A stretch of DNA of 64,000 bases, from contig NZ_AP019365.1 in NCBI RefSeq assembly GCF_033095865.1, forward strand, positions 2,825,501 to 2,889,500, in the 5' to 3' direction. The notes under the pieces are model-generated. The model saw only the letters and a list, made by a program, of their open reading frames with translations, searched no databases and was not told the origin of the DNA. Source of the stretch: Pseudomonas sp. KU43P. GTDB taxonomy: Bacteria; Pseudomonadota; Gammaproteobacteria; Pseudomonadales; Pseudomonadaceae. Shown here one piece after another: positions 32,601 to 43,437 of the stretch. A program made the position numbers and the translations under genes. Numbering within the stretch: the stretch's first letter is position 1; the number at the start of each line of letters is the position of its first letter.

Positions 32601-33245
32601 TTACGGGAGGATCAGCGGCACGCCACTGAGCTTCTGCAACTCGTCGAAGTCGATGTCGGCGCAGATCTCTACCACTTTCAGCCCGTCGGACGTCACTTCA
32701 AGCACGGCCAGGTCGGTGTAGATGCGGCTGACGCAACCGATGCCGGTCAGCGGGTAGGTGCACTCGGGCACCAGCTTGCTTTCGCCGGACTTGGTCAGGT
32801 GGTCCATCATCACGAACACCTGGCGGGCGCCGGTGGCCAGGTCCATCGCGCCGCCCACGGCCGGGATCGAACCCTCGGCGCCTGTGTGCCAGTTGGCCAG
32901 GTCGCCCTTGACCGACACCTGGAAGGCGCCCAGTACGGCGATGTCCAGGTGGCCGCCACGCATCATCGAGAAGGAATCGGCGTGGTGGAAGAAGGCGCCG
33001 CCGGTGAGCAGGGTCACGTGCTGCTTGCCGGCGTTGATCAGGTCATCGTCTTCTTCGCCCGGCGCAGGGCTTGGGCCCATGCCCAGCAGGCCGTTCTCGC
33101 TGTGCAGGAACACTTCCTTATCGCCCAGGTAGTTGGCCACCATGGTCGGTGCGCCAATGCCCAGATTGACGTACGCGCCTTCCTGGATGTCTGCGGCCAC
33201 GCGCTGGGCCATCTCGGTGCGGGAGAGCTTTTTGGTGATGGTCAT
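32601..33245 (-). CDS. pcaJ: 3-oxoadipate CoA-transferase subunit B
   Basis: A 214-residue beta subunit of the succinyl-CoA:3-oxoadipate CoA-transferase. VNLGIGAPTMVANYLGDKEV is followed by the catalytic glutamate (Glu50) in HSENGLLGMGP, and GGHLDIAVLGAFQV is conserved. It matches the P. putida PcaJ pattern nearly throughout. With PcaI it activates beta-ketoadipate to its CoA ester in the protocatechuate/catechol pathway. The pcaI gene lies 8 bases upstream in the same operon. Confidence 0.95.
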   Translation of the reverse strand: MTITKKLSRTEMAQRVAADIQEGAYVNLGIGAPTMVANYLGDKEVFLHSENGLLGMGPSPAPGEEDDDLINAGKQHVTLLTGGAFFHHADSFSMMRGGHLDIAVLGAFQVSVKGDLANWHTGAEGSIPAVGGAMDLATGARQVFVMMDHLTKSGESKLVPECTYPLTGIGCVSRIYTDLAVLEVTSDGLKVVEICADIDFDELQKLSGVPLILP

Positions 33246-33253
33246 GGCAGGCC

Positions 33254-33949
33254 TCAGACAGCGTTGGCGATCGAAGAAGCGGCAGCGCCGGTGACGGCAA
33301 CCACGCGCTGGACGAAGATACCCGGGGTGATGATGTGTTCCGGGTCCAGCTCACCGAGTTCGACGATCTGGTCGACCTGGGCGATGGCGGTCTTGGCGGC
33401 CATGGCCATGATCGGGCCGAAGTTGCGAGCGGCCTTGCGGTAGATCAGGTTGCCCCAACGGTCGCCCTTGTGCGCCTTGATCAGCGCGAAGTCGGCGTGC
33501 AGCGGCATTTCCAGGACGTACTGGCGGCCGTCGATCTCGCGGGTCTCTTTGCCTTCGGCCAGCAAGGTGCCGTAGCCAGTTGGCGAGAAGAACGCACCGA
33601 TGCCCGAGCCCGCAGCGCGGATACGCTCTGCCAGGTTGCCTTGTGGTACCACCTCCAGCTCGATCTTGCCGGCCCGGTACAGTTCGTCGAACACGTAGGA
33701 GTCCGACTGGCGCGGGAACGAGCAGACCACCTTGCGCACGCTGCCAGCCTTGAGCAGGGCGGCCAGGCCGACCTCACCGTTGCCAGCGTTGTTGCTGATG
33801 ATGGTCAGGTCGCGGGTACCGGTGTCGATCAGGGCGTCGATGAGCTCGGACGGCATGCCGGCGGTGCCAAAACCACCGACCATGATGGTCGAACCGTCGG
33901 TGATCCCTTCCACCGCGCTGGCGATGGACTCAAACGTTTTATTGATCAA
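33254..33949 (-). CDS. pcaI: 3-oxoadipate CoA-transferase subunit A
   Basis: A 231-residue alpha subunit beginning INKTFESIASAVEGI, with IMVGGFGTAGMPSEL and GSGIGAFFSPTGYGT as in P. putida PcaI. Homology sets the start at TTG 33949, preceded by CAGGA. The frame is also open upstream to ATG 34054 and beyond, which would add 35 or more residues of unrelated leader; I treat that as untranslated. An IclR-type palindrome lies at 34102-34116, fitting regulation by PcaR. Confidence 0.92.
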   Translation of the reverse strand: MINKTFESIASAVEGITDGSTIMVGGFGTAGMPSELIDALIDTGTRDLTIISNNAGNGEVGLAALLKAGSVRKVVCSFPRQSDSYVFDELYRAGKIELEVVPQGNLAERIRAAGSGIGAFFSPTGYGTLLAEGKETREIDGRQYVLEMPLHADFALIKAHKGDRWGNLIYRKAARNFGPIMAMAAKTAIAQVDQIVELGELDPEHIITPGIFVQRVVAVTGAAASSIANAV

Positions 33950-34101
33950 AGCGAAATCCTGATTGTTCCTGGAGGATGGATTGTCGATCTGGCCGATTTG
34001 CTCTGAAGCGATGGGGCCAGTCAGCGCTTGGGAAATGTTTACTGACGTGGCCATAGCGTGCCGCAAGATGGGGCACAAGTAGAGAGGGATAAGGGGATTT
34101 T

Positions 34102-34116
34102 GTTCGATTATCGAAC
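34102..34116. promoter_or_regulatory. Probable PcaR (IclR-type) operator upstream of pcaIJ
   Basis: GTTCGATTATCGAAC is a perfect 15-bp palindrome about 150 bases upstream of the pcaI start. It is close to the GTTCGATAATCGCAC motif known for PcaR, the IclR-family activator of pca genes in P. putida. The match is by eye. Confidence 0.7.
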
Positions 34117-34224
34117 AGTTGTGCGAGGCACATGAAGCGCTCATGGCGGCTGCGCACCTGGCTTGGGACAGCTTGGCGTAATCACTTTTGCCTCCACGGC
34201 ACGAGTGGGTGCGGTGTCAGTTGT

Positions 34225-34523: not shown

Positions 34524-34551
34524 AAGCCAGCGACATTCCTGTCGCTGGCTT
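34524..34551. terminator. Strong hairpin terminator, bidirectional
   Basis: AAGCCAGCGACA-TTCC-TGTCGCTGGCTT is a perfect 12-bp stem with a 4-base loop, followed by TTAT on the plus strand and by ACCC on the minus strand. It separates the LysR remnant from the end of the convergent catabolic operon. Confidence 0.8.
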
Positions 34552-34581: not shown

Positions 34582-34953
34582 TCAGGCAAGGCCGTGGCGC
34601 TGTTTCCAATCACCCGGGTACACCACATAACCGAACAGCGCGTGGCCTGCATAAACCAGCTCCGTGCCTTCGGGAATCCACAGCACCTGGCCTGGCGATA
34701 CGCGATACACCTCGCCGTTGGCCTGCAATTCGAAACAGCCCTCAATGACAAAAATCACTTCGTCGTAGAGCACCGTCCAGGCCACTTCGGCACCTTCCCA
34801 GCGGGCAAAGCCGATGCCCAGGTTGGGCGACACTTCGTTACTGATGGCGCGTGCTACCCACGCGTCGCCAGGCGGGCCGCCCCGCTGGGCAAAGTCCAGG
34901 TCCCGGTGGTCGACCAGACGCACGGGGCCATTGCCGCTTGGCGCGCGGCTCAT
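34582..34953 (-). CDS. Cupin-fold protein (EutQ-like)
   Basis: A 123-residue single-domain cupin. WTVLYDEVIFVIEGCFELQA and SPGQVLWIPEGTELVY give the two cupin motifs; the usual metal histidines are mostly missing, as in EutQ-like cupins. Its start overlaps the stop of the amine oxidase gene by 4 bases, so it is the last gene of the Rieske operon. A role in handling a reactive intermediate, or as a small isomerase, is possible; the function is unknown. Confidence 0.75.
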   Translation of the reverse strand: MSRAPSGNGPVRLVDHRDLDFAQRGGPPGDAWVARAISNEVSPNLGIGFARWEGAEVAWTVLYDEVIFVIEGCFELQANGEVYRVSPGQVLWIPEGTELVYAGHALFGYVVYPGDWKQRHGLA

Positions 34954-36278
34954 ACTTCGCTCCTGCTGTTGAACGCTGCCCAGCGGATCCGGGTGCGCAC
35001 ACCCATGCCCAAGAACGGCTCAGGCGGGTTACGCGAAGGCATGCCAGTCACTGCGCGGATGTCACTCAATTGCCGGGAGTCCGCCCCCACTGCCATGTCC
35101 GCCAGCAGCGTGCCGGAGATGGTGCCCCAGGCCGCGCCCACGCCGTTGTCGCAGGCGGTGGCGTAAACACCGTCATCGAGCTGGCCGAAGTAGTTGGTAA
35201 AGTTGCGTGAGATCGCATACACCCCGCCCCAGGTATGAGTGAACGGCACCTGTGCCAGTTGCGGATAGCGCGCCGCGAAGGCCTTGCGATGGTCATCGCG
35301 AATCTTGTTGCGGGTAGCATCGGAGATGCTGCGACCGTAGCGAGGAACATGCTTGTAGGTATTGCGGATGATCAGGCGCCGGTCCTGGGTCATTCGTACA
35401 GTAGTACCGGCGTGGTCAGCTGGGGTCAGGCCCCAGTCAGCCTGGGCACCAACCGCTGCCATCTCGGCATCGCTCAGTGGCCGCGTCCAGCTGGCGAAGG
35501 TCATCACCGGCAGGAGTCGGTTACGCAGGTAGCCGAACTCCTGGGTGAAGATGCTGGTGCCCAGCAGTACTTGCGGGCTACGGATCAGCCCGTTGTCGCC
35601 CCGCAGCAGCCACTTGCCGCTGGGGTCTTTCTGAAGTGTGCGGATTGGCGATTCTTCAAGCACTTCAACGTTGCCGGGAAGTGAACCACCCAGGCCACGT
35701 ACCAGGGCAGCAGGCTGCATCAGGAAGCAACCGGGCGTGTAAATGGCGCGGCTGTAGTAGCGGCTACCGAGTACACCGGCCAGTTCGTCACGCCCGACTA
35801 CGCGATAGGGCTCGCCCAGGTCGGCCATCAGTTTTTCAAAGTGATCCAGATAACCCTCGCCACGTTCTCCCACCGCGCCCTGGTATTTGCCCGCATGGGA
35901 CCACTGGCATTCGATGCTGTGACGGCCGATCAATGTTTGCAGTTGATCGATGGCTGAGCGGTTCAGGCCCAACAGGCGTTGTTTGTGCTGTGGGTCGGGA
36001 TGCTCGAGGGCGAACTTGTGCGGCAGGTCGATGACGAAACCCGAGTTGCGCCCGGAGGCGCCGTAGGCAATTCGCTGGGCATCTACCAGAATGATGCGCG
36101 CCTGCGGCAGGTGTTCGGCCAGGCGCCGTGCGGCGGCAAGCCCAGCGAAGCCGGCGCCGATTACCACATAGTCGGCGTTCTGTTCGCCACTCAGGCGCTT
36201 GCTCGGCGCAGGTTCTGGCAGCGCGGCATACCAGCCGCAGCTGCGGTCATCGTGAGGCAGATTGACGATACTGTTCAT
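34950..36278 (-). CDS. FAD-dependent amine oxidase (DAO family, PuuB-like)
   Basis: A 442-residue flavoprotein. The dinucleotide fold ADYVVIGAGFAGLAAARRLA starts near residue 35; AYGASGRNSGFVIDLP and WGGVYAISRNFTNYFG follow the gamma-glutamylputrescine oxidase/PuuB group of the D-amino-acid oxidase superfamily. Such enzymes oxidise secondary or primary amines to aldehydes or imines. It lies 9 bases behind the rubredoxin-reductase gene, pointing to a product amine of the Rieske step as substrate. Confidence 0.87.
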   Translation of the reverse strand: MNSIVNLPHDDRSCGWYAALPEPAPSKRLSGEQNADYVVIGAGFAGLAAARRLAEHLPQARIILVDAQRIAYGASGRNSGFVIDLPHKFALEHPDPQHKQRLLGLNRSAIDQLQTLIGRHSIECQWSHAGKYQGAVGERGEGYLDHFEKLMADLGEPYRVVGRDELAGVLGSRYYSRAIYTPGCFLMQPAALVRGLGGSLPGNVEVLEESPIRTLQKDPSGKWLLRGDNGLIRSPQVLLGTSIFTQEFGYLRNRLLPVMTFASWTRPLSDAEMAAVGAQADWGLTPADHAGTTVRMTQDRRLIIRNTYKHVPRYGRSISDATRNKIRDDHRKAFAARYPQLAQVPFTHTWGGVYAISRNFTNYFGQLDDGVYATACDNGVGAAWGTISGTLLADMAVGADSRQLSDIRAVTGMPSRNPPEPFLGMGVRTRIRWAAFNSRSEV

Positions 36279-36287
36279 GGTTCGGCC

Positions 36288-37673
36288 TCAGGCCACATTT
36301 TGTTGGGTGTCCTGGCAGCTTTGCAGCCAGGTATTTCGTTGCAGTTGTGCCTGACGGCCGAGCAGCACGAACCCGCGCAGGGCACCGGCGTGGTCGTGGA
36401 ACGCAGCGCTCAATCCATCGCTGGTCGCATCGCAGCGCCATTGGCCCTCGCAGCCACCGGGAGGTGTCAGCAGGCACAGTGGGGCGACCGGGGTTTTCAC
36501 CGTCACCGGCGCCAGTGGGTAGTGGGCGGCGGTCGGCTGGCCCAGCAAGGTCTTGGCCAGGGCACGAATGCCTTCGTTGATCGGCGCGAGGTAGGGCAGC
36601 AACTGGCCGTTGATCTCGACGCAATCGCCCAAGGCATAGATGCCCGGCTGCGAAGTCTGTAGTTGTGCGTCGACCTTGATCCCGCGGCCGCAGGCCAGGC
36701 CGGCCTCCAGTGCCAGCTCAAGGTTGGGGCGCAAGCCCACTGCACTGAGCACCAGGTCCGCAGCGACGACTTGACCGTCGGCCAAGGTCAATCGGTAGCC
36801 ATCGCTGCCCGGCTCGATGCGCTGCAAGGTGGTGCCCAGGTTCCACTGCACCCCCAACCCGGATAGCGCTTGTTGCAGGTGCTGGCCGGCCGCCTCGGGG
36901 AGCAGGCGTTCCATGGGCCAGGCACCCAGGCCGATTACCCGCACCTGATAGCCATTGCTCGCAAGGTCGTTGGCAAACTCGCAGCCGATCAGACCGTCGC
37001 CCAGAATGGCCACGCTGCGCACGCCTTCAAGGCGTTGGCGGAACGCTTGGTAATCCTGCAGGTTGTTGACGCTGAGCAGTGCCTCGGCGCAGCCCTCCAT
37101 AGGCAACCGCACGGCAGAGGCCCCACTGGCGAGTACCAGTTGACCGTAGTCCATTTCGCCGAGGCTGGTGTACAAGCGCCGCGCCCGGGCATCGATGCGT
37201 TCGACTTTGCAGCCGGTATAGATACGAATGCCCAGCCTCTGTTCGATCGCCAGCGGCGTTTCGGTGGCCAGGGCTGCGGCGGTGCGGCCCTGGGCCAGGG
37301 CGATGGAGAGCGCAGGCTTGGAATAGAGATGCCCCGATTCCTGGGTCAGTACGCGAATCTCCAGGTGCGGGTCGGCCTTGCGCAGGGCCTGTGCCAGGCC
37401 GTAGCCGGCATGGCCGCTGCCGATGATGACCACTGGTTGTGCCGGGCGGGCCGCGACCACAGGCTGGGCCTGGATGACCGGCGCGGCAGCCACAGCTGCG
37501 ATCGGGGTGCTGAGTTCGATCATTTCAAAGTCGGCCTTGCCGACCTTGCATTCAGGGCATAGCCAGTCTTCGGGCACATCCTCCCAGCGCGTGCCGGGGG
37601 CAATACCGTCGTCGGGCCAACCTTTGGCTTCGTCGTAGATCAGGCCACAGATGATGCAGAGCCAGGTTTTCAT
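36288..37673 (-). CDS. Rubredoxin-rubredoxin reductase fusion protein
   Basis: A 461-residue protein in which an N-terminal rubredoxin (Cys6/Cys9 in CIICG and Cys39/Cys42 in CPECKVG, about 55 residues) is joined by an Ala/Pro-rich linker to a FAD/NAD(P)H reductase ([29 protein letters not shown]). It can pass electrons from NAD(P)H via FAD to its own rubredoxin centre. In this operon the obvious acceptor is the Rieske oxygenase encoded upstream, an unusual pairing since Rieske oxygenases normally use ferredoxin-type reductases. Confidence 0.9.
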
Positions 37674-37685
37674 CGCGCTACCTCC

Positions 37686-39131
37686 TCACTCGGCCTTGAT
37701 ACGCACGGCCAGGTTCTTGGTCCTGACGTAGCTGTAGAGCGCCTCCTGGCCTTTTTCTCGTCCGAAGCCCGAGAGGCCGACGCCGCCAAACGGCGTTTCG
37801 ATGCCACCGGCATACCATTCGTTGACGAACACCTGGCCGGCGCACAGTCGCCGCGCACAGCGCAGGGCGCGATTGAGGTCCTGGGTGAACACGCCGGCCA
37901 CCAGCCCGAACACGGTGCCGTTGGCAATGGCGATGGCCTCCTCTTCGTTGTCGAAGGGGATCACGGCCAGCACAGGGCCGAAGACTTCGGTCTGGGCGAT
38001 CTCCATCTGCGCAGTCACATCGCGCAGTACGGTTGGCGCCATGTAGTGTCCGCGCAGGCCGCTGATGGCCTCGCCGCCGGTTGCGACCACCGCGCCTTGC
38101 TGCTGGGCACGTCGGCACAGGGCCTCGATGCCTTCGAGCTGACCGGCAGAAATCACTGGCGTGTGGTCGGGGTTGTCCTGGCCCAGGCCCACGGTCAGCC
38201 CCTCGGCCATCGCTACCACGTCAGCGACGACCTCGTCATAGATCGAGCGATGTACCAGCAGGCGCGACATGGCCGAGCACACCTGGCCGGCATTGAAGAA
38301 GATGCCGCTTTTCACGCTGTTGATCAGTTGCTCGCGATCGGCATCCGGGAACACCAGGGCGGCCGACTTGCCGCCCAGCTCCATGACGCTGGGAATGGCG
38401 TGCTCGGCGGCGCTGCGCAGAATGCTCTGGCCGGTGCCGACGGAACCGGTGAAGACGATCTGGTCGACATCGCGATGGCCGGCCAGGTAGGCACCCACTT
38501 CACGGCCACGGCCGCAGATCAGATTGACTGCACCTTGTGGCAGGCCGGCACGCTCGATGGCCTGCATCAGCACGCACAGGCCAAGTGGCGACAGTTCCGG
38601 CGACTTGATCACTACCGCGTTGCCGGCCGCCAGGGCAGGTGCCAGGGAGCGGGCGCAGATCGACACCGGGAAGTTCCACGGCACGATCTGCAGCGACACG
38701 CCCATGGGGTCGTAGACAGTGAAGTCCATGTAGCCGTCACCCAGCGGAATCGACGTGCCTTCGATCTTGTCGGCCATGCCGGCGTAATACTCGAAGTAGC
38801 GCGCGGCCTCGACGAATTCGTCACGGGCATCGCGCAGGCTCTTGCCGTTTTCCTGGCACAGCACCCACGCGCCTTCGTCGGTGATTGCACGAATCTGCGC
38901 GGCAATCTCAAGCAGCCAGGTCACCCGCTGCGCGGGGCGCACGCAGTTCAGAGCGTTGCTGTCGGCACAGCGCCGGGCGGCCTGCAGGGCACGTTCGGCG
39001 TCGGCCACACTGGCCTGGGCGATGGTCGCCACAGGGTCGCTGGTGCCAGGGTTGTGGATGCTCAGGTGCTGCTCACTGTCGGTCCACTGGCCGTCGATGA
39101 AGTTCAGCCAGTGCGGGGCTATCGAATGCAT
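37686..39131 (-). CDS. Aldehyde dehydrogenase (betaine-aldehyde type)
   Basis: A 481-residue NAD(P)-dependent enzyme. VPWNFPVSICARSLAPALAA, the glutamate in VMELGGKSAALVF and the catalytic cysteine in FFNAGQVCSAMSRLLV are present. The start is ATG 39131 with GAGG upstream. Similarity is to betaine aldehyde and gamma-aminobutyraldehyde dehydrogenases. It sits between the Rieske oxygenase and rubredoxin-reductase genes (10- and 12-base gaps), so it should oxidise the aldehyde made by the oxygenase or the amine oxidase. Confidence 0.9.
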   Translation of the reverse strand: MHSIAPHWLNFIDGQWTDSEQHLSIHNPGTSDPVATIAQASVADAERALQAARRCADSNALNCVRPAQRVTWLLEIAAQIRAITDEGAWVLCQENGKSLRDARDEFVEAARYFEYYAGMADKIEGTSIPLGDGYMDFTVYDPMGVSLQIVPWNFPVSICARSLAPALAAGNAVVIKSPELSPLGLCVLMQAIERAGLPQGAVNLICGRGREVGAYLAGHRDVDQIVFTGSVGTGQSILRSAAEHAIPSVMELGGKSAALVFPDADREQLINSVKSGIFFNAGQVCSAMSRLLVHRSIYDEVVADVVAMAEGLTVGLGQDNPDHTPVISAGQLEGIEALCRRAQQQGAVVATGGEAISGLRGHYMAPTVLRDVTAQMEIAQTEVFGPVLAVIPFDNEEEAIAIANGTVFGLVAGVFTQDLNRALRCARRLCAGQVFVNEWYAGGIETPFGGVGLSGFGREKGQEALYSYVRTKNLAVRIKAE

Positions 39132-39141
39132 TGTGATCACC

Positions 39142-40332
39142 TCAGGCGCGTTGCGCGCAGTCAAGCAGTTGGCGGGCAGCCCACTTGTGGAAGTAGTGGG
39201 TCGGCAGGTCCATTTCCGGCGAGAACGCACCGCCGCTGTAGCCAGGCGAGGAGCGGCCCTTCTGCATGCCTTCGACCGAGGCGATGTCTTCGGCGAACAC
39301 CACGCGCCAGGATTCCATTACCGCTTTGCGCGAGGCGTCGTAATGGCTGTCGAGCGCTTCGTCACCCACGTAGAACAAGCGCAGGTGCTCGATGGTTTTA
39401 CCCGGCGCCACAGGCTCGAGCATCATGGCGAACGCATGGTCGGCCTGGATGCCCAACAGCACGTTGGGGAAGAACGCCACGTACTCGGCGGTGCGCAGGC
39501 GGTCCTGTGGCCAGGATGGGAAGATCGGCAAATGGGTACCGGCAACGGCCGAGAGGTTGTAGGCGTGGCTGCCCTGGCCGGCGAATTCCTCGAACATGAT
39601 GTTGTAGTGGTCTTCCAGGCGCGAGTAGCTGTTCAGGCTCGGGTGCACCCACGGCAGGTGGTAGGCCTCGCAGTAGTTCTCGACCGCCAGCTTCCAGTTG
39701 CAGTTGACCTCGATGCTCATGGCACCGCTGTTCGCTTCACGGCGCAGCAGACCCATGCCGTCGGTGCCCAGGAATTGGGTCCAGCGTTCGGTCAGCGGCT
39801 GCAGTTGTTCTTCAAGGGCCGGTGCGTCGCCGGACAGGTTGATGAACACCATGTCCATCCAGATCGTGGTGCGCAGCGCCTTCAGGCCGTGTTTTTCGCA
39901 GGCGAAACGTTCGTCTTTGTGCTGATTGATCCCGCCAACGTGTGGGGTACCTTTGAGGCCGCCGTTCAGGTCGTAGGTCCAGGAGTGGTAGGGGCAGCGG
40001 ATCACACCCTGTACTGCACCCGCCTGTTGCACCAGCTTCACGCCGCGGTGGCTGCAGACGTTGTGGAACACCTGCACCAGGCCTTCGCGATTGCGCATCA
40101 TCAACAGCGGCAGGCCCATGAAATCGACCGGCTTGACGTAGCTGTTGGTTGGCAGGTCGCTGGCAAAACCGATACAGGCCCAGTTGCGCCCCAGCACCTC
40201 GTCGCGCTCAAGTTCGAAATAGCGCTGGTCGGTGTAGAACTCGTTGGTCAGGCCATGAGCTTCATGGATAGGCGCCAGAACGGTTTCCAGGGCGTGGACG
40301 GGAATAAGGCGGGAATCAGTCGATACGGTCAT
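39142..40332 (-). CDS. Rieske non-haem iron oxygenase alpha subunit
   Basis: A 396-residue ring-hydroxylating-type oxygenase. The Rieske cluster ligands are Cys93/His95 (NVCSHRG) and Cys113/His116 (RCPYHSWTY). The mononuclear iron site is in ENYCEAYHLPWVHP (HxxxxH). The overall pattern is that of the GbcA, CntA and choline monooxygenase branch, which attacks quaternary or N-methyl amines, rather than of aromatic-ring dioxygenases; no beta subunit is present. First gene of a five-gene operon, divergent from a BCCT transporter. Confidence 0.9.
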   Translation of the reverse strand: MTVSTDSRLIPVHALETVLAPIHEAHGLTNEFYTDQRYFELERDEVLGRNWACIGFASDLPTNSYVKPVDFMGLPLLMMRNREGLVQVFHNVCSHRGVKLVQQAGAVQGVIRCPYHSWTYDLNGGLKGTPHVGGINQHKDERFACEKHGLKALRTTIWMDMVFINLSGDAPALEEQLQPLTERWTQFLGTDGMGLLRREANSGAMSIEVNCNWKLAVENYCEAYHLPWVHPSLNSYSRLEDHYNIMFEEFAGQGSHAYNLSAVAGTHLPIFPSWPQDRLRTAEYVAFFPNVLLGIQADHAFAMMLEPVAPGKTIEHLRLFYVGDEALDSHYDASRKAVMESWRVVFAEDIASVEGMQKGRSSPGYSGGAFSPEMDLPTHYFHKWAARQLLDCAQRA

Positions 40333-40728
40333 TTTTTGTTTTCTCTTGTTAGATGCACGGCAGGCAATGCCTTGATGCCTGGTGCCAGTTTCAGCAAGAG
40401 AAAGAAGGGCGACAAACGATTTATTTCAGCGTTATTTATCAGTTTTTCTCATTAATGATTGCTGGGGGAGGGTAGCCGCGGCAGAGGAAGGGGTGGGGAG
40501 TGGTCAGGCTCGAAACGTTAAAGATTAATGATTTATCGTAATCAATTGATGACTAAAAATGGTTTGTCGAAGTGGCGGTAATTCTCCCATTTTGATAGGG
40601 CCCAAGGGAGCTGCCTCGCTTTGGGTTTGCGGGGAAGTCCGCCGCCAAGGATTCGGCACCTGCCTGTGGCAGTGGCTTCACCCACACCGTGACTAAAACC
40701 CTTGAACAAAAACAATAGGGGATATCAA
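40333..40728. promoter_or_regulatory. Divergent control region of Rieske operon and BCCT gene
   Basis: This AT-rich stretch of about 400 bases holds both promoters. The 10-mer ATTAATGATT occurs twice (40451-40460 and 40524-40533), 73 bases apart or about seven helical turns, and GATTTAT also recurs. Spaced repeats like these are candidate sites for the GcvA-type LysR encoded at 42499. There is no coding sequence. Confidence 0.5.
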
Positions 40729-42432
40729 ATGCGTGCCGAATCTGGCCTGCTCAAAGGCCTCCATCCCACAGTAACGATCTGGTCGTTACTGGCCGTCGTC
40801 GCCTTCGTGCTATTTTGCGCACTGTTTGCCGAACATGCAGCAGCCGCTTTTCAACGTGCCTCGGACTTCATCCTGCAGGACTTCAAATGGTTCTACCTGA
40901 TCTCCGTCACGGGTGTCCTGGGGCTGCTGATCTATCTGATGTGCAGCAAGTTCGGGCATATCAAGCTTGGGCGAGACGACGATAAACCGGAGTTCAGCTT
41001 CGGCTCCTGGATCGCCATGTTGTTCAGTGGCGGCATGGGCATCGGGCTGATCTTCTGGTCGGTTGCCGAACCCATGTGGCATTACGCGGGCAACCCGTTC
41101 GCCACCGGCCTCACCGATGAAGCCGCCACCACAGCCATGCGCATCACCTTGTTCCACTGGGGCCTGCACCCCTGGGCCATTTTCACCATCGTCGGCCTGG
41201 GGCTTGCCTACTTTGCCTACCGCAAAGGCTTGCCGCTGAGCATGCGCTCGATCCTTTACCCGCTGATCGGTGAGCGCATCTATGGGCCCATCGGACATGT
41301 GGTGGACATTCTTGCCGTGGTGATTACCGCGTTCGGTGTATCCCAGTCGCTGGGCCTGGGCGTGGTGCAAATGAATACCGGGCTGAGTCAGGTGTTCGAC
41401 CTGCCCATCAGCCTGGGGGTGCAGATCACCCTGATCGTGCTCATTACCATGGTCACCACTGTATCGGTGATGGCTGGTGTATCGCGTGGCATGAAGCGCC
41501 TCTCGGAATGGAACATGTTGTTGTCGGTGGTGCTGGTGGTGATGATCCTGTTGCTGGGGCCAACCCGCTACATCCTCAACCTGATGCTGGAAAGCACCGG
41601 CGACTATGCCAGCCATGTAGTGGGCCTGAGCTTTTGGAGCGATACCCAGAAAGACAGCGGCTGGCAGAACTGGTGGACAGCGTTCTACTGGCCGTGGTGG
41701 ATGACCTGGGGCCCATTTGTCGGTCTGTTCATCGCGCGAATTTCCAAGGGCCGCACCATTCGTGAACTGATCGCCGGCGCACTGTTGGTACCTACCCTGG
41801 TGACCATCATCTGGATGTCGGTGTTCGGTGGTGCGGCGCTCAAGGCTGAGCAGGTCGATCGTCAGCACCACGCAGAACTGGTTGCCAGTGGTGAATTGCA
41901 GGGCGACAAGGCCCAGTTCGAAGGTGGCACGGTATTGCTGGCGACCAAGCAGGAAACCACCGCCGCCATGTTCACCCTGCTGCACAAGATCGATGCGGGT
42001 ACCTTGGGCAAGGTGCTGAGCGTGCTGGTCTGTATCCTGCTGGCGACGTACTTCATCACCTCGGCAGACTCCGGCACCCAGGTGCTATGTACGTTAAATT
42101 CCATGGGCAGTGCCAATCCGCCGCAGAGCATCCGCATGCTCTGGTGCATCCTAGAAGGTGCTATTGCCACGGCGCTACTGATGGCGGGGGGGCTCAAGGC
42201 GATCCAAATGGCGAGCATCGCCGCGGGATTGCCGATTGCGGGGTTCATCCTGCTGATTAGTTACACTCTGATGCGCAGCTTGCGCCAGGAGATGGCTGAC
42301 GGCCTGCTTGATACGCCGCCGGGTGGGCGCCAGTCTATCCCTGGGATTCTCCCGCAAGGCATCACGCCGGTGGCCGGGCCGTTGGTCAGTGGGGAGCTTG
42401 GTATGGGGCTGACAGCGAAGAAAGCCAGCTGA
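40729..42432 (+). CDS. BCCT family betaine/carnitine/choline transporter
   Basis: A 567-residue 12-segment transporter. SGGMGIGLIFWSVAEPMWHY and the signature WPWWMTWGPFVGLFIARISK are diagnostic of BCCT carriers for quaternary ammonium compounds. The start is ATG 40729 with AGGGGA upstream, in preference to TTG 40702. Its divergence from the Rieske operon strongly suggests that it imports that pathway's substrate. The C-terminal tail is short, arguing for a catabolic rather than osmosensing carrier. Confidence 0.92.
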   Translation: MRAESGLLKGLHPTVTIWSLLAVVAFVLFCALFAEHAAAAFQRASDFILQDFKWFYLISVTGVLGLLIYLMCSKFGHIKLGRDDDKPEFSFGSWIAMLFSGGMGIGLIFWSVAEPMWHYAGNPFATGLTDEAATTAMRITLFHWGLHPWAIFTIVGLGLAYFAYRKGLPLSMRSILYPLIGERIYGPIGHVVDILAVVITAFGVSQSLGLGVVQMNTGLSQVFDLPISLGVQITLIVLITMVTTVSVMAGVSRGMKRLSEWNMLLSVVLVVMILLLGPTRYILNLMLESTGDYASHVVGLSFWSDTQKDSGWQNWWTAFYWPWWMTWGPFVGLFIARISKGRTIRELIAGALLVPTLVTIIWMSVFGGAALKAEQVDRQHHAELVASGELQGDKAQFEGGTVLLATKQETTAAMFTLLHKIDAGTLGKVLSVLVCILLATYFITSADSGTQVLCTLNSMGSANPPQSIRMLWCILEGAIATALLMAGGLKAIQMASIAAGLPIAGFILLISYTLMRSLRQEMADGLLDTPPGGRQSIPGILPQGITPVAGPLVSGELGMGLTAKKAS

Positions 42433-42451
42433 GCTAGATTTCTCCTGGTAG

Positions 42452-42491
42452 ACACAAGACCGACAGCCATCAGCTGTCGGTCTTGTGTTTT
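42452..42491. terminator. Rho-independent terminator between BCCT and LysR genes
   Basis: ACACAAGACCGACAGC and GCTGTCGGTCTTGTGT form a perfect 16-bp stem with a 5-base loop followed by TTTT. It lies between two convergent genes and clearly ends the BCCT transcript. Confidence 0.92.
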
Positions 42492-42498
42492 GGGGAGG

Positions 42499-43437
42499 CT
42501 ATTTCTGAACCGAAGGCTGGGCCATCAACCAGTCTCGGAACAGCCGCACGCTTTCACGGGGGCCACGCTCGGTGGACGACTCCAGCAGGCAGAACTTGGC
42601 GTCGGTCTGCAGTACCACTTCGTTGGGCTTGACCAGCGCACCGGTGCTCAACGCATCGTCCACCAGGTTACCCCAGGCCAGGGCCACACCCTGGCCACTG
42701 ATCGCCGACTGGATCAGCATACCGTAGCTGTTGATGTTGACGCGGTGCTTGGGTGTTATGGGCTCGTACCCCAAACGCTTGAACCACTCAGGCCAACCTA
42801 CCCAGTCGCGCTGAGAGTCTTCAAGCCATAGCCAGGTACACGACGACAACCCTTCAATGCTGCTCAGTTGCGGATGCCTGGCCAGATAGGCCGGGCTGCA
42901 CACAAGGAAAATTTCTTCCGAGAATAGCGGCGTGACAGTCATGTCCTTGGGCGGTGGGTTGCAGTAGTACAGCGCCAAGTCGCTGTCGAGTCTGGCGTAA
43001 TCCTTCACATGGTCGTGGGCGATGATCCGCAGGTCGATATTTTCATGAGCGTTCTGGAATTCCGACACCTTGGGCAGCAACCACAGCGAAGCCATGGCGG
43101 TACTGGTGGCAACGGTGACCTGTTGATTGCCTTGCCACTGGCGTATCTCGCCGGTAGCGCGGGCCAGGTGCATCATGCATTCACGCACCGTTTCGTAATA
43201 CTGCGCGCCGGTGGGGGTCAGGGCCATGCTACGAGTGGTACGGGTGAACAGTGCCTTGCCCAGGTAGTCCTCAAGAAGGCGAACCTGACGGCTGATTGCA
43301 CCCTGGGTGACATTCAATTCCTTGGCAGCAAGGGTAAAGCTCAAGTGGCGTGCCGCAGACTCAAAAGCATGAAGACTGTTGAGCGGCGGAAGAGGCTGGA
43401 TTTTCACGGGCGGAGGTCCACACATTTTTCTTATCAT
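42499..43437 (-). CDS. LysR regulator, GcvA type
   Basis: A regulator of about 312 residues. The helix-turn-helix spans PPLNSLHAFESAARHLSFTL and LNVTQGAISRQVRLLEDYLG, the signature opening of GcvA-like LTTRs. The frame is open 69 codons further upstream, but that part is antisense to a gene remnant at 43552, so a start at ATG 43437 or 43425 is chosen. It is convergent with the BCCT gene and is the best candidate regulator for the BCCT-Rieske region. Confidence 0.86.
   Translation of the reverse strand: MIRKMCGPPPVKIQPLPPLNSLHAFESAARHLSFTLAAKELNVTQGAISRQVRLLEDYLGKALFTRTTRSMALTPTGAQYYETVRECMMHLARATGEIRQWQGNQQVTVATSTAMASLWLLPKVSEFQNAHENIDLRIIAHDHVKDYARLDSDLALYYCNPPPKDMTVTPLFSEEIFLVCSPAYLARHPQLSSIEGLSSCTWLWLEDSQRDWVGWPEWFKRLGYEPITPKHRVNINSYGMLIQSAISGQGVALAWGNLVDDALSTGALVKPNEVVLQTDAKFCLLESSTERGPRESVRLFRDWLMAQPSVQK

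Follow-up and report, generated by a model that had tools for sequence, protein, structure and literature searches.

The 64,000-nucleotide stretch analysed here (hereafter the window; contig NZ_AP019365.1, positions 2,825,501 to 2,889,500) comes from Pseudomonas sp. KU43P, whose genome is a single contig of 5.87 Mb, and carries five closely spaced genes that probably form an operon for the breakdown of an imported betaine-like (quaternary-ammonium) compound, with a Rieske monooxygenase that would depend on rubredoxin for its electrons. The usual donors to Rieske oxygenases are described as ferredoxins or 2Fe-2S-reductases; a rubredoxin donor, if real, would alter the reconstitution and annotation of these enzymes, bring into question the naming of a widespread group as choline or carnitine monooxygenases, and open up a betaine pathway common to soil, plant-associated and marine proteobacteria. 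The parts belong to known families and their combination is a variant. Among the titles and abstracts listed from open-licence papers in PMC, none describes a rubredoxin-fed Rieske oxygenase or the cluster, in line with the original prediction, which did not recognise the exact pathway; most subscription papers and all preprints lie outside that set, and novelty in print is therefore uncertain. The searched part of a 2025 review of Rieske oxygenases (PMC12445004) does not contain the word rubredoxin. The features of the locus, in window positions, are as follows.

39142-40332, minus strand: Rieske non-haem iron oxygenase (Pfam Rieske and Ring_hydroxyl_A) with the signature of group Va, defined below (Y220, E222, iron ligands H225, H230 and D349).
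37686-39131, minus strand: aldehyde dehydrogenase (ALDH) of betaine-aldehyde/aminoaldehyde type (Pfam Aldedh), with a Phe six positions ahead of the catalytic Cys.
36288-37673, minus strand: fusion (Rd-RdR) of a rubredoxin (about residues 1-55) with an NADH:rubredoxin reductase (about residues 79-452) (Pfam Rubredoxin, Pyr_redox_2 and Rbx_binding).
34950-36278, minus strand: amine oxidase of the DAO superfamily (Pfam DAO), dependent on flavin adenine dinucleotide (FAD), with a predicted fold that most resembles those of glycine and sarcosine oxidases.
34582-34953, minus strand: small EutQ-like cupin (Pfam EutQ above its cut-off, Cupin_2 below).
40729-42432, plus strand: BCCT-family transporter, divergent from the operon (Pfam BCCT).
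42499-43437, minus strand: GcvA-like LysR regulator (Pfam LysR; GcvA model 266.8 bits against a cut-off of 288).
34524-34551, no strand assigned: 12-pair hairpin just past the cupin gene, terminator-like for the plus strand only (consensus match).

The original prediction had described five tightly packed genes facing a BCCT transporter, with a LysR gene beyond it. Every gene that it named proved to be open and in place in the window, with the Pfam assignments given above and, on the minus strand from the Rieske gene towards the cupin, intergenic gaps of 10, 12 and 9 bp followed by a 4-bp overlap of oxidase and cupin. Start sites were corrected, most likely to 39131 for the ALDH, to the ATG at 40729 for the transporter and to 43437 or 43425 for the regulator.

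Relatives of the locus were collected by a scan of GTDB genomes that gave at least 593 stretches, of which at least 586 encode relatives; the top 80 (L007-L086) were kept and four plasmid loci were added, making 84 loci, each spanning at most 10 kb per side and some of them short contigs. Genes in these relatives were called from codon usage by a caller that misses genes, chiefly small ones such as the cupin, so that counts of called genes are lower bounds. Among loci from named genomes, 68 extend 7 kb or more downstream, and at least 50 of these keep the order Rieske, ALDH, Rd-RdR, amine oxidase on one strand, which therefore is not due to chance; the cluster, for which the original prediction had proposed a conservation survey, is thus conserved, and at least 39 of the 50 order-keeping loci also have the cupin. 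By tblastn, matches were obtained in the 80 loci for the ALDH (77), the fusion (76), the amine oxidase (67), the cupin (64), BCCT (65) and LysR (77), the last two counts taking in distant family members. Cluster members occur in many gamma- and some betaproteobacteria, with genera including Pseudomonas, Acinetobacter, Vibrio, Halomonas, Psychrobacter, Pseudoalteromonas, Marinobacterium, Thauera and Paraburkholderia. Within the genus Pseudomonas the distribution is patchy (Rieske gene in 24 of 298 genomes, E <= 1e-120), and the nearest named relative among the loci fetched is Pseudomonas vranovensis, with a 99% identical Rieske protein. In three loci (L074, L076 and L077) the amine oxidase and cupin are placed across the Rieske gene from the fusion.

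Both parts of the fusion match the rubredoxin and rubredoxin reductase of Pseudomonas (PDB 2v3a and 2v3b), which are separate chains, whereas the window protein is a single fused chain inside a Rieske operon. The rubredoxin cysteines C6, C9, C39 and C42 are conserved in 95% or more of 74 sequences, and rubredoxin and reductase parts lie no more than 300 bases apart in 78 of the 84 loci, upholding the atypical rubredoxin partner of the original prediction. Its further claim, that a standard GbcB/CntB partner is missing, also held: a PDR-type (CntB/GbcB-like) reductase query from the Phaeobacter relative (L090) has no tblastn match in the window, and the same query does match beside the host's own CntA and GbcA. 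The six loci without the pair comprise two short contigs (L022 and L085, of 4.1 and 3.4 kb), three loci with neither part (L070, L082 and L090), and Marinobacter sp. X15-166B (L057), which has rubredoxin alone, as a 55-residue match 84% identical to the rubredoxin part, followed by the oxidase gene. Seven loci (L071, L072, L073, L075, L083, L084 and L086) combine the Rieske gene and Rd-RdR with no DAO match in about 10 kb downstream; among 12 DAO relatives outside the cluster (one locus being just 2.8 kb long), an ALDH adjoins five and a cupin one, and neither rubredoxin nor its reductase stands beside any. The amine oxidase was thus rejected as the partner of the fusion, which belongs with the Rieske gene.

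Several observations count against a rubredoxin donor, and some favour the alternative that Rd-RdR is a redox-stress or oxygen-handling accessory and that the oxygenase is supplied by a ferredoxin-type reductase whose gene lies elsewhere, a reading that we consider unlikely, though far from negligible. In the Phaeobacter relative Rd-RdR is absent and a PDR-type reductase lies nearby, and the Rieske genes of L070 and L082 have no Rd-RdR within 10 kb on each side; rubredoxin is therefore not universal in the clade. PDR-like reductases are found within 10 kb in L020 and L066 besides Rd-RdR, and the PDR-type query from Phaeobacter has six matches across the host genome (E <= 1e-10), so that the oxygenase could use a reductase in trans. 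Candidates for the ferredoxin-type reductase that the original prediction had named as a possible true donor are thus present, and sequence alone is indecisive between them and the fusion. Among 12 other fused Rd-RdR loci, taken from the matches listed in a class search, the Rieske motif is absent from the 10-17 kb read around 11, L124 being the exception; in two of these 12 the search pattern for rubredoxin failed to pick up the fusion, and Rd-RdR fusions were rejected as a marker for Rieske systems in general. Distances of the fusion follow those of the Rieske protein (rank correlation 0.74) less closely than do those of LysR (0.91) and ALDH (0.89), and no better than those of the amine oxidase and the cupin (0.78 each). 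At 82% identity to the host's free rubredoxin, the rubredoxin domain in the window shows no mark of a special partner. The Marinobacter genome encodes a second free rubredoxin, and its matches to the reductase part are at most 35% identical. Many Rieske oxygenase clusters also have potentials below those of rubredoxins, so that electron transfer would be uphill. Against the accessory role stand the position of the fusion within the operon, its retention together with the Rieske gene, the rubredoxin-only Marinobacter strain, and a second, independent pairing in the same genome. This last was found outside the window via the genome's other Rd-RdR.

L096:8774-11226, about 3106773-3109225 of the contig: second Rieske and Rd-RdR pair.

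Here a VanA_C-type Rieske gene (L096:8774-9856) is followed 14 bp on by its own Rd-RdR. This second type of fusion is present in seven of 298 genomes of the genus, the host included (E <= 1e-130), with a Rieske motif just upstream in all seven, and the two Rieske proteins of the host are 22% identical over 237 residues. A broader reading, possible but somewhat doubtful when taken as a whole, is that two unrelated Rieske families independently took an NADH-FAD-rubredoxin fusion as donor, and that the window member opens a betaine route not yet described, with cleavage of a C-N bond (perhaps in a ring) leaving the amine on the aldehyde and with oxidation of the aldehyde and of the N-methylamine following.

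The class of the oxygenase bears on what is imported. Published passages give an aromatic residue (Tyr or Phe) at CntA position 203 as the criterion of group Va, and all 84 aligned sequences have one (79 Tyr and 5 Phe). The window protein has the Rieske motif, the 2-His-1-Asp iron site and the bridging carboxylate; by signature it is a predicted group V clade Va (quaternary-ammonium) oxygenase, as anticipated by the betaine-type assignment of the original prediction. CntA is its best solved relative by sequence (E 4e-35), a fold match to Stc2 ties with that to CntA, and the GbcA model (NF058607) gives 137 bits, below its cut-off of 670. GbcA/GbcB and the stachydrine demethylase Stc2, of group Vb, are likewise Rieske monooxygenases acting on betaines, but have Asn where the window clade has Tyr or Phe (seen for GbcA in the alignment of the host's two GbcA-like proteins, and for Stc2 in published passages). 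The equivalent of CntA Tyr225 is ambiguous (His242 or Phe247 in two alignments) and was left out of the argument. Note also that C221, directly ahead of the bridging Glu, is invariant in the 84 sequences and is Leu in the host's CntA.

For the operon as a whole, a rubredoxin-dependent betaine pathway remains the reading that we prefer. It draws on several things read from sequence: which genes are present, their order and conservation, a group Va signature at the active site, and the association of Rieske with rubredoxin genes; the electron route and chemistry are inferred. Electrons would pass from NADH through the FAD reductase domain and the fused rubredoxin to the Rieske cluster, and the mononuclear iron would hydroxylate either a carbon beside the quaternary nitrogen or a CH2OH of the choline kind; the resulting aldehyde would probably retain the amine. 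The betaine-aldehyde-type ALDH would convert this aldehyde to an acid, the resulting N-methylated amine would be oxidised by the sarcosine/glycine-oxidase-type flavoenzyme, with the cupin as a putative accessory of this step, and LysR would control the operon. The operon of the original prediction stands; that its pieces form a complete route from uptake to aldehyde oxidation is still a prediction. The transporter is the least stable member, with no match in 15 of the 80 loci (some of these short contigs) and a correlation with Rieske distances of just 0.25, which makes it the exchangeable part. As to the amine oxidase, which the original prediction called PuuB-like, its best NCBIfam match is L-pipecolate oxidase, at 117 bits of 600, and a sequence search of PDB gave no match. 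A cyclic betaine of the proline, hydroxyproline or pipecolate betaine type, its ring being opened, is our guess for the substrate, made with little confidence. Homarine catabolism (hom genes) reportedly loses one ring carbon and yields N-methylglutamate, a chemistry that would apparently call for a hydrolase and a reductase, neither of which was seen in the cluster.

Carnitine and glycine betaine, the best-known substrates for oxygenases of this type, are already provided for elsewhere in the host. Its CntA (660 bits to solved CntA) adjoins a CntB-like reductase and its GbcA (811.6 bits, above the cut-off) a GbcB-like one, and the window Rieske protein is 25% and 24% identical to them, respectively; the genome therefore argues against both compounds as substrates. 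We also would like to point out a further betaine-like locus outside the window (L111, contig 3262000-3281999) with BCCT, a GbcA-like Rieske protein (495 bits, below the cut-off), OpuA-type ABC genes and a GbdR-like AraC regulator, which has no reductase match in its 20-kb stretch and also encodes a 41% paralogue of the window amine oxidase.

A carnitine or gamma-butyrobetaine module, in which the Rieske enzyme would release trimethylamine and a dicarboxylic semialdehyde, then oxidised by the ALDH, is accordingly quite improbable, despite the kinship with CntA noted above. The window shares a group Va Rieske gene, a semialdehyde-type ALDH, BCCT and LysR in one locus with the CntA/CntB operon of Acinetobacter baumannii, and its layout resembles the carnitine operon described in passages of PMC11353897. 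Contigs of Psychrobacter fozii (L068) and Psychrobacter sp. 4Bb (L067), both in our set, are given as partial carnitine modules in passages of PMC6514802 that name neither rubredoxin nor amine oxidase. However, the carboxylate-binding pocket residues are missing, the substrate-contacting N270 and Y295 of CntA being Gly and Leu, and so is the Cys206/Cys209 pair, replaced by Ala or Ser and by Leu, all in 84 of 84 aligned sequences; the Arg at the Arg284 position is absent from all 77 cluster ALDHs examined. The rubredoxin fusion moreover takes the place of CntB, and the extra amine oxidase and cupin would be left without explanation.

Compared with 45 NCBIfam families, the ALDH scores best with betaine-aldehyde dehydrogenase (TIGR01804; 401.6 bits, below the cut-off of 668.6). 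This would suit a choline-monooxygenase-like route, where a quaternary amino-alcohol would be turned into an aldehyde by the Rieske enzyme and then into a betaine by the ALDH, and many relatives are named choline monooxygenase by JGI. We nevertheless regard this route as improbable, since it is hard to see what the amine oxidase would do with a quaternary betaine product, and choline oxidation in pseudomonads runs via BetA/BetB. The choline monooxygenases of group Va are plant enzymes. That group Va takes in choline monooxygenases at all, as a published passage has it, is a point in favour of the choline route.

A role in the use of dimethylsulphoniopropionate (DMSP) or a related onium acid is very improbable, although a DddP-like M24 protein (family F8, named from one member) was called in 18 of the 84 loci, for example L048, L051, L053 and L015-L021. 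The Oceanisphaera and Oceanimonas M24 proteins (L048 and L051) are about 66% identical to the host's DddP-family protein, encoded in L111, which at 612.2 bits passes the NCBIfam DddP cut-off of 600; the member in L018 scores 427.7 bits, below it. In the remaining 66 loci, some of them truncated, this incomplete caller gave no M24 gene; near the cluster, the window genes looked at include no DddP-like one, and acrylate genes were not searched for. This family and an MFS family (F7, called in 25 of 84 loci) were rejected as core members, both counts being lower bounds.

At the downstream end of the operon, the CoA-transferase pair ScoA/ScoB (32601-34144) was rejected as a pathway member and placed outside the operon because it is separated by a 437-bp gap and has tblastn matches in none of the 80 loci L007-L086. 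The hairpin past the cupin gene is weak evidence of a terminator because such sites show no excess in the region (8 found, where shuffles gave 9.5 on average); it is not followed by a T-run on the strand of the operon. In Acinetobacter, the gene after the cupin (L044:15897-17075) has no Pfam match and looks by eye like a porin (outer membrane). A family of proteins of 560-610 residues is encoded near the Rieske gene in a Pseudomonas plasmid (L087:272-2101), the Phaeobacter plasmid (L090:16231-17940; the sole member scanned, without a Pfam match) and HTCC2148 (L082:18707-20494), and in both plasmids it adjoins DUF3726.

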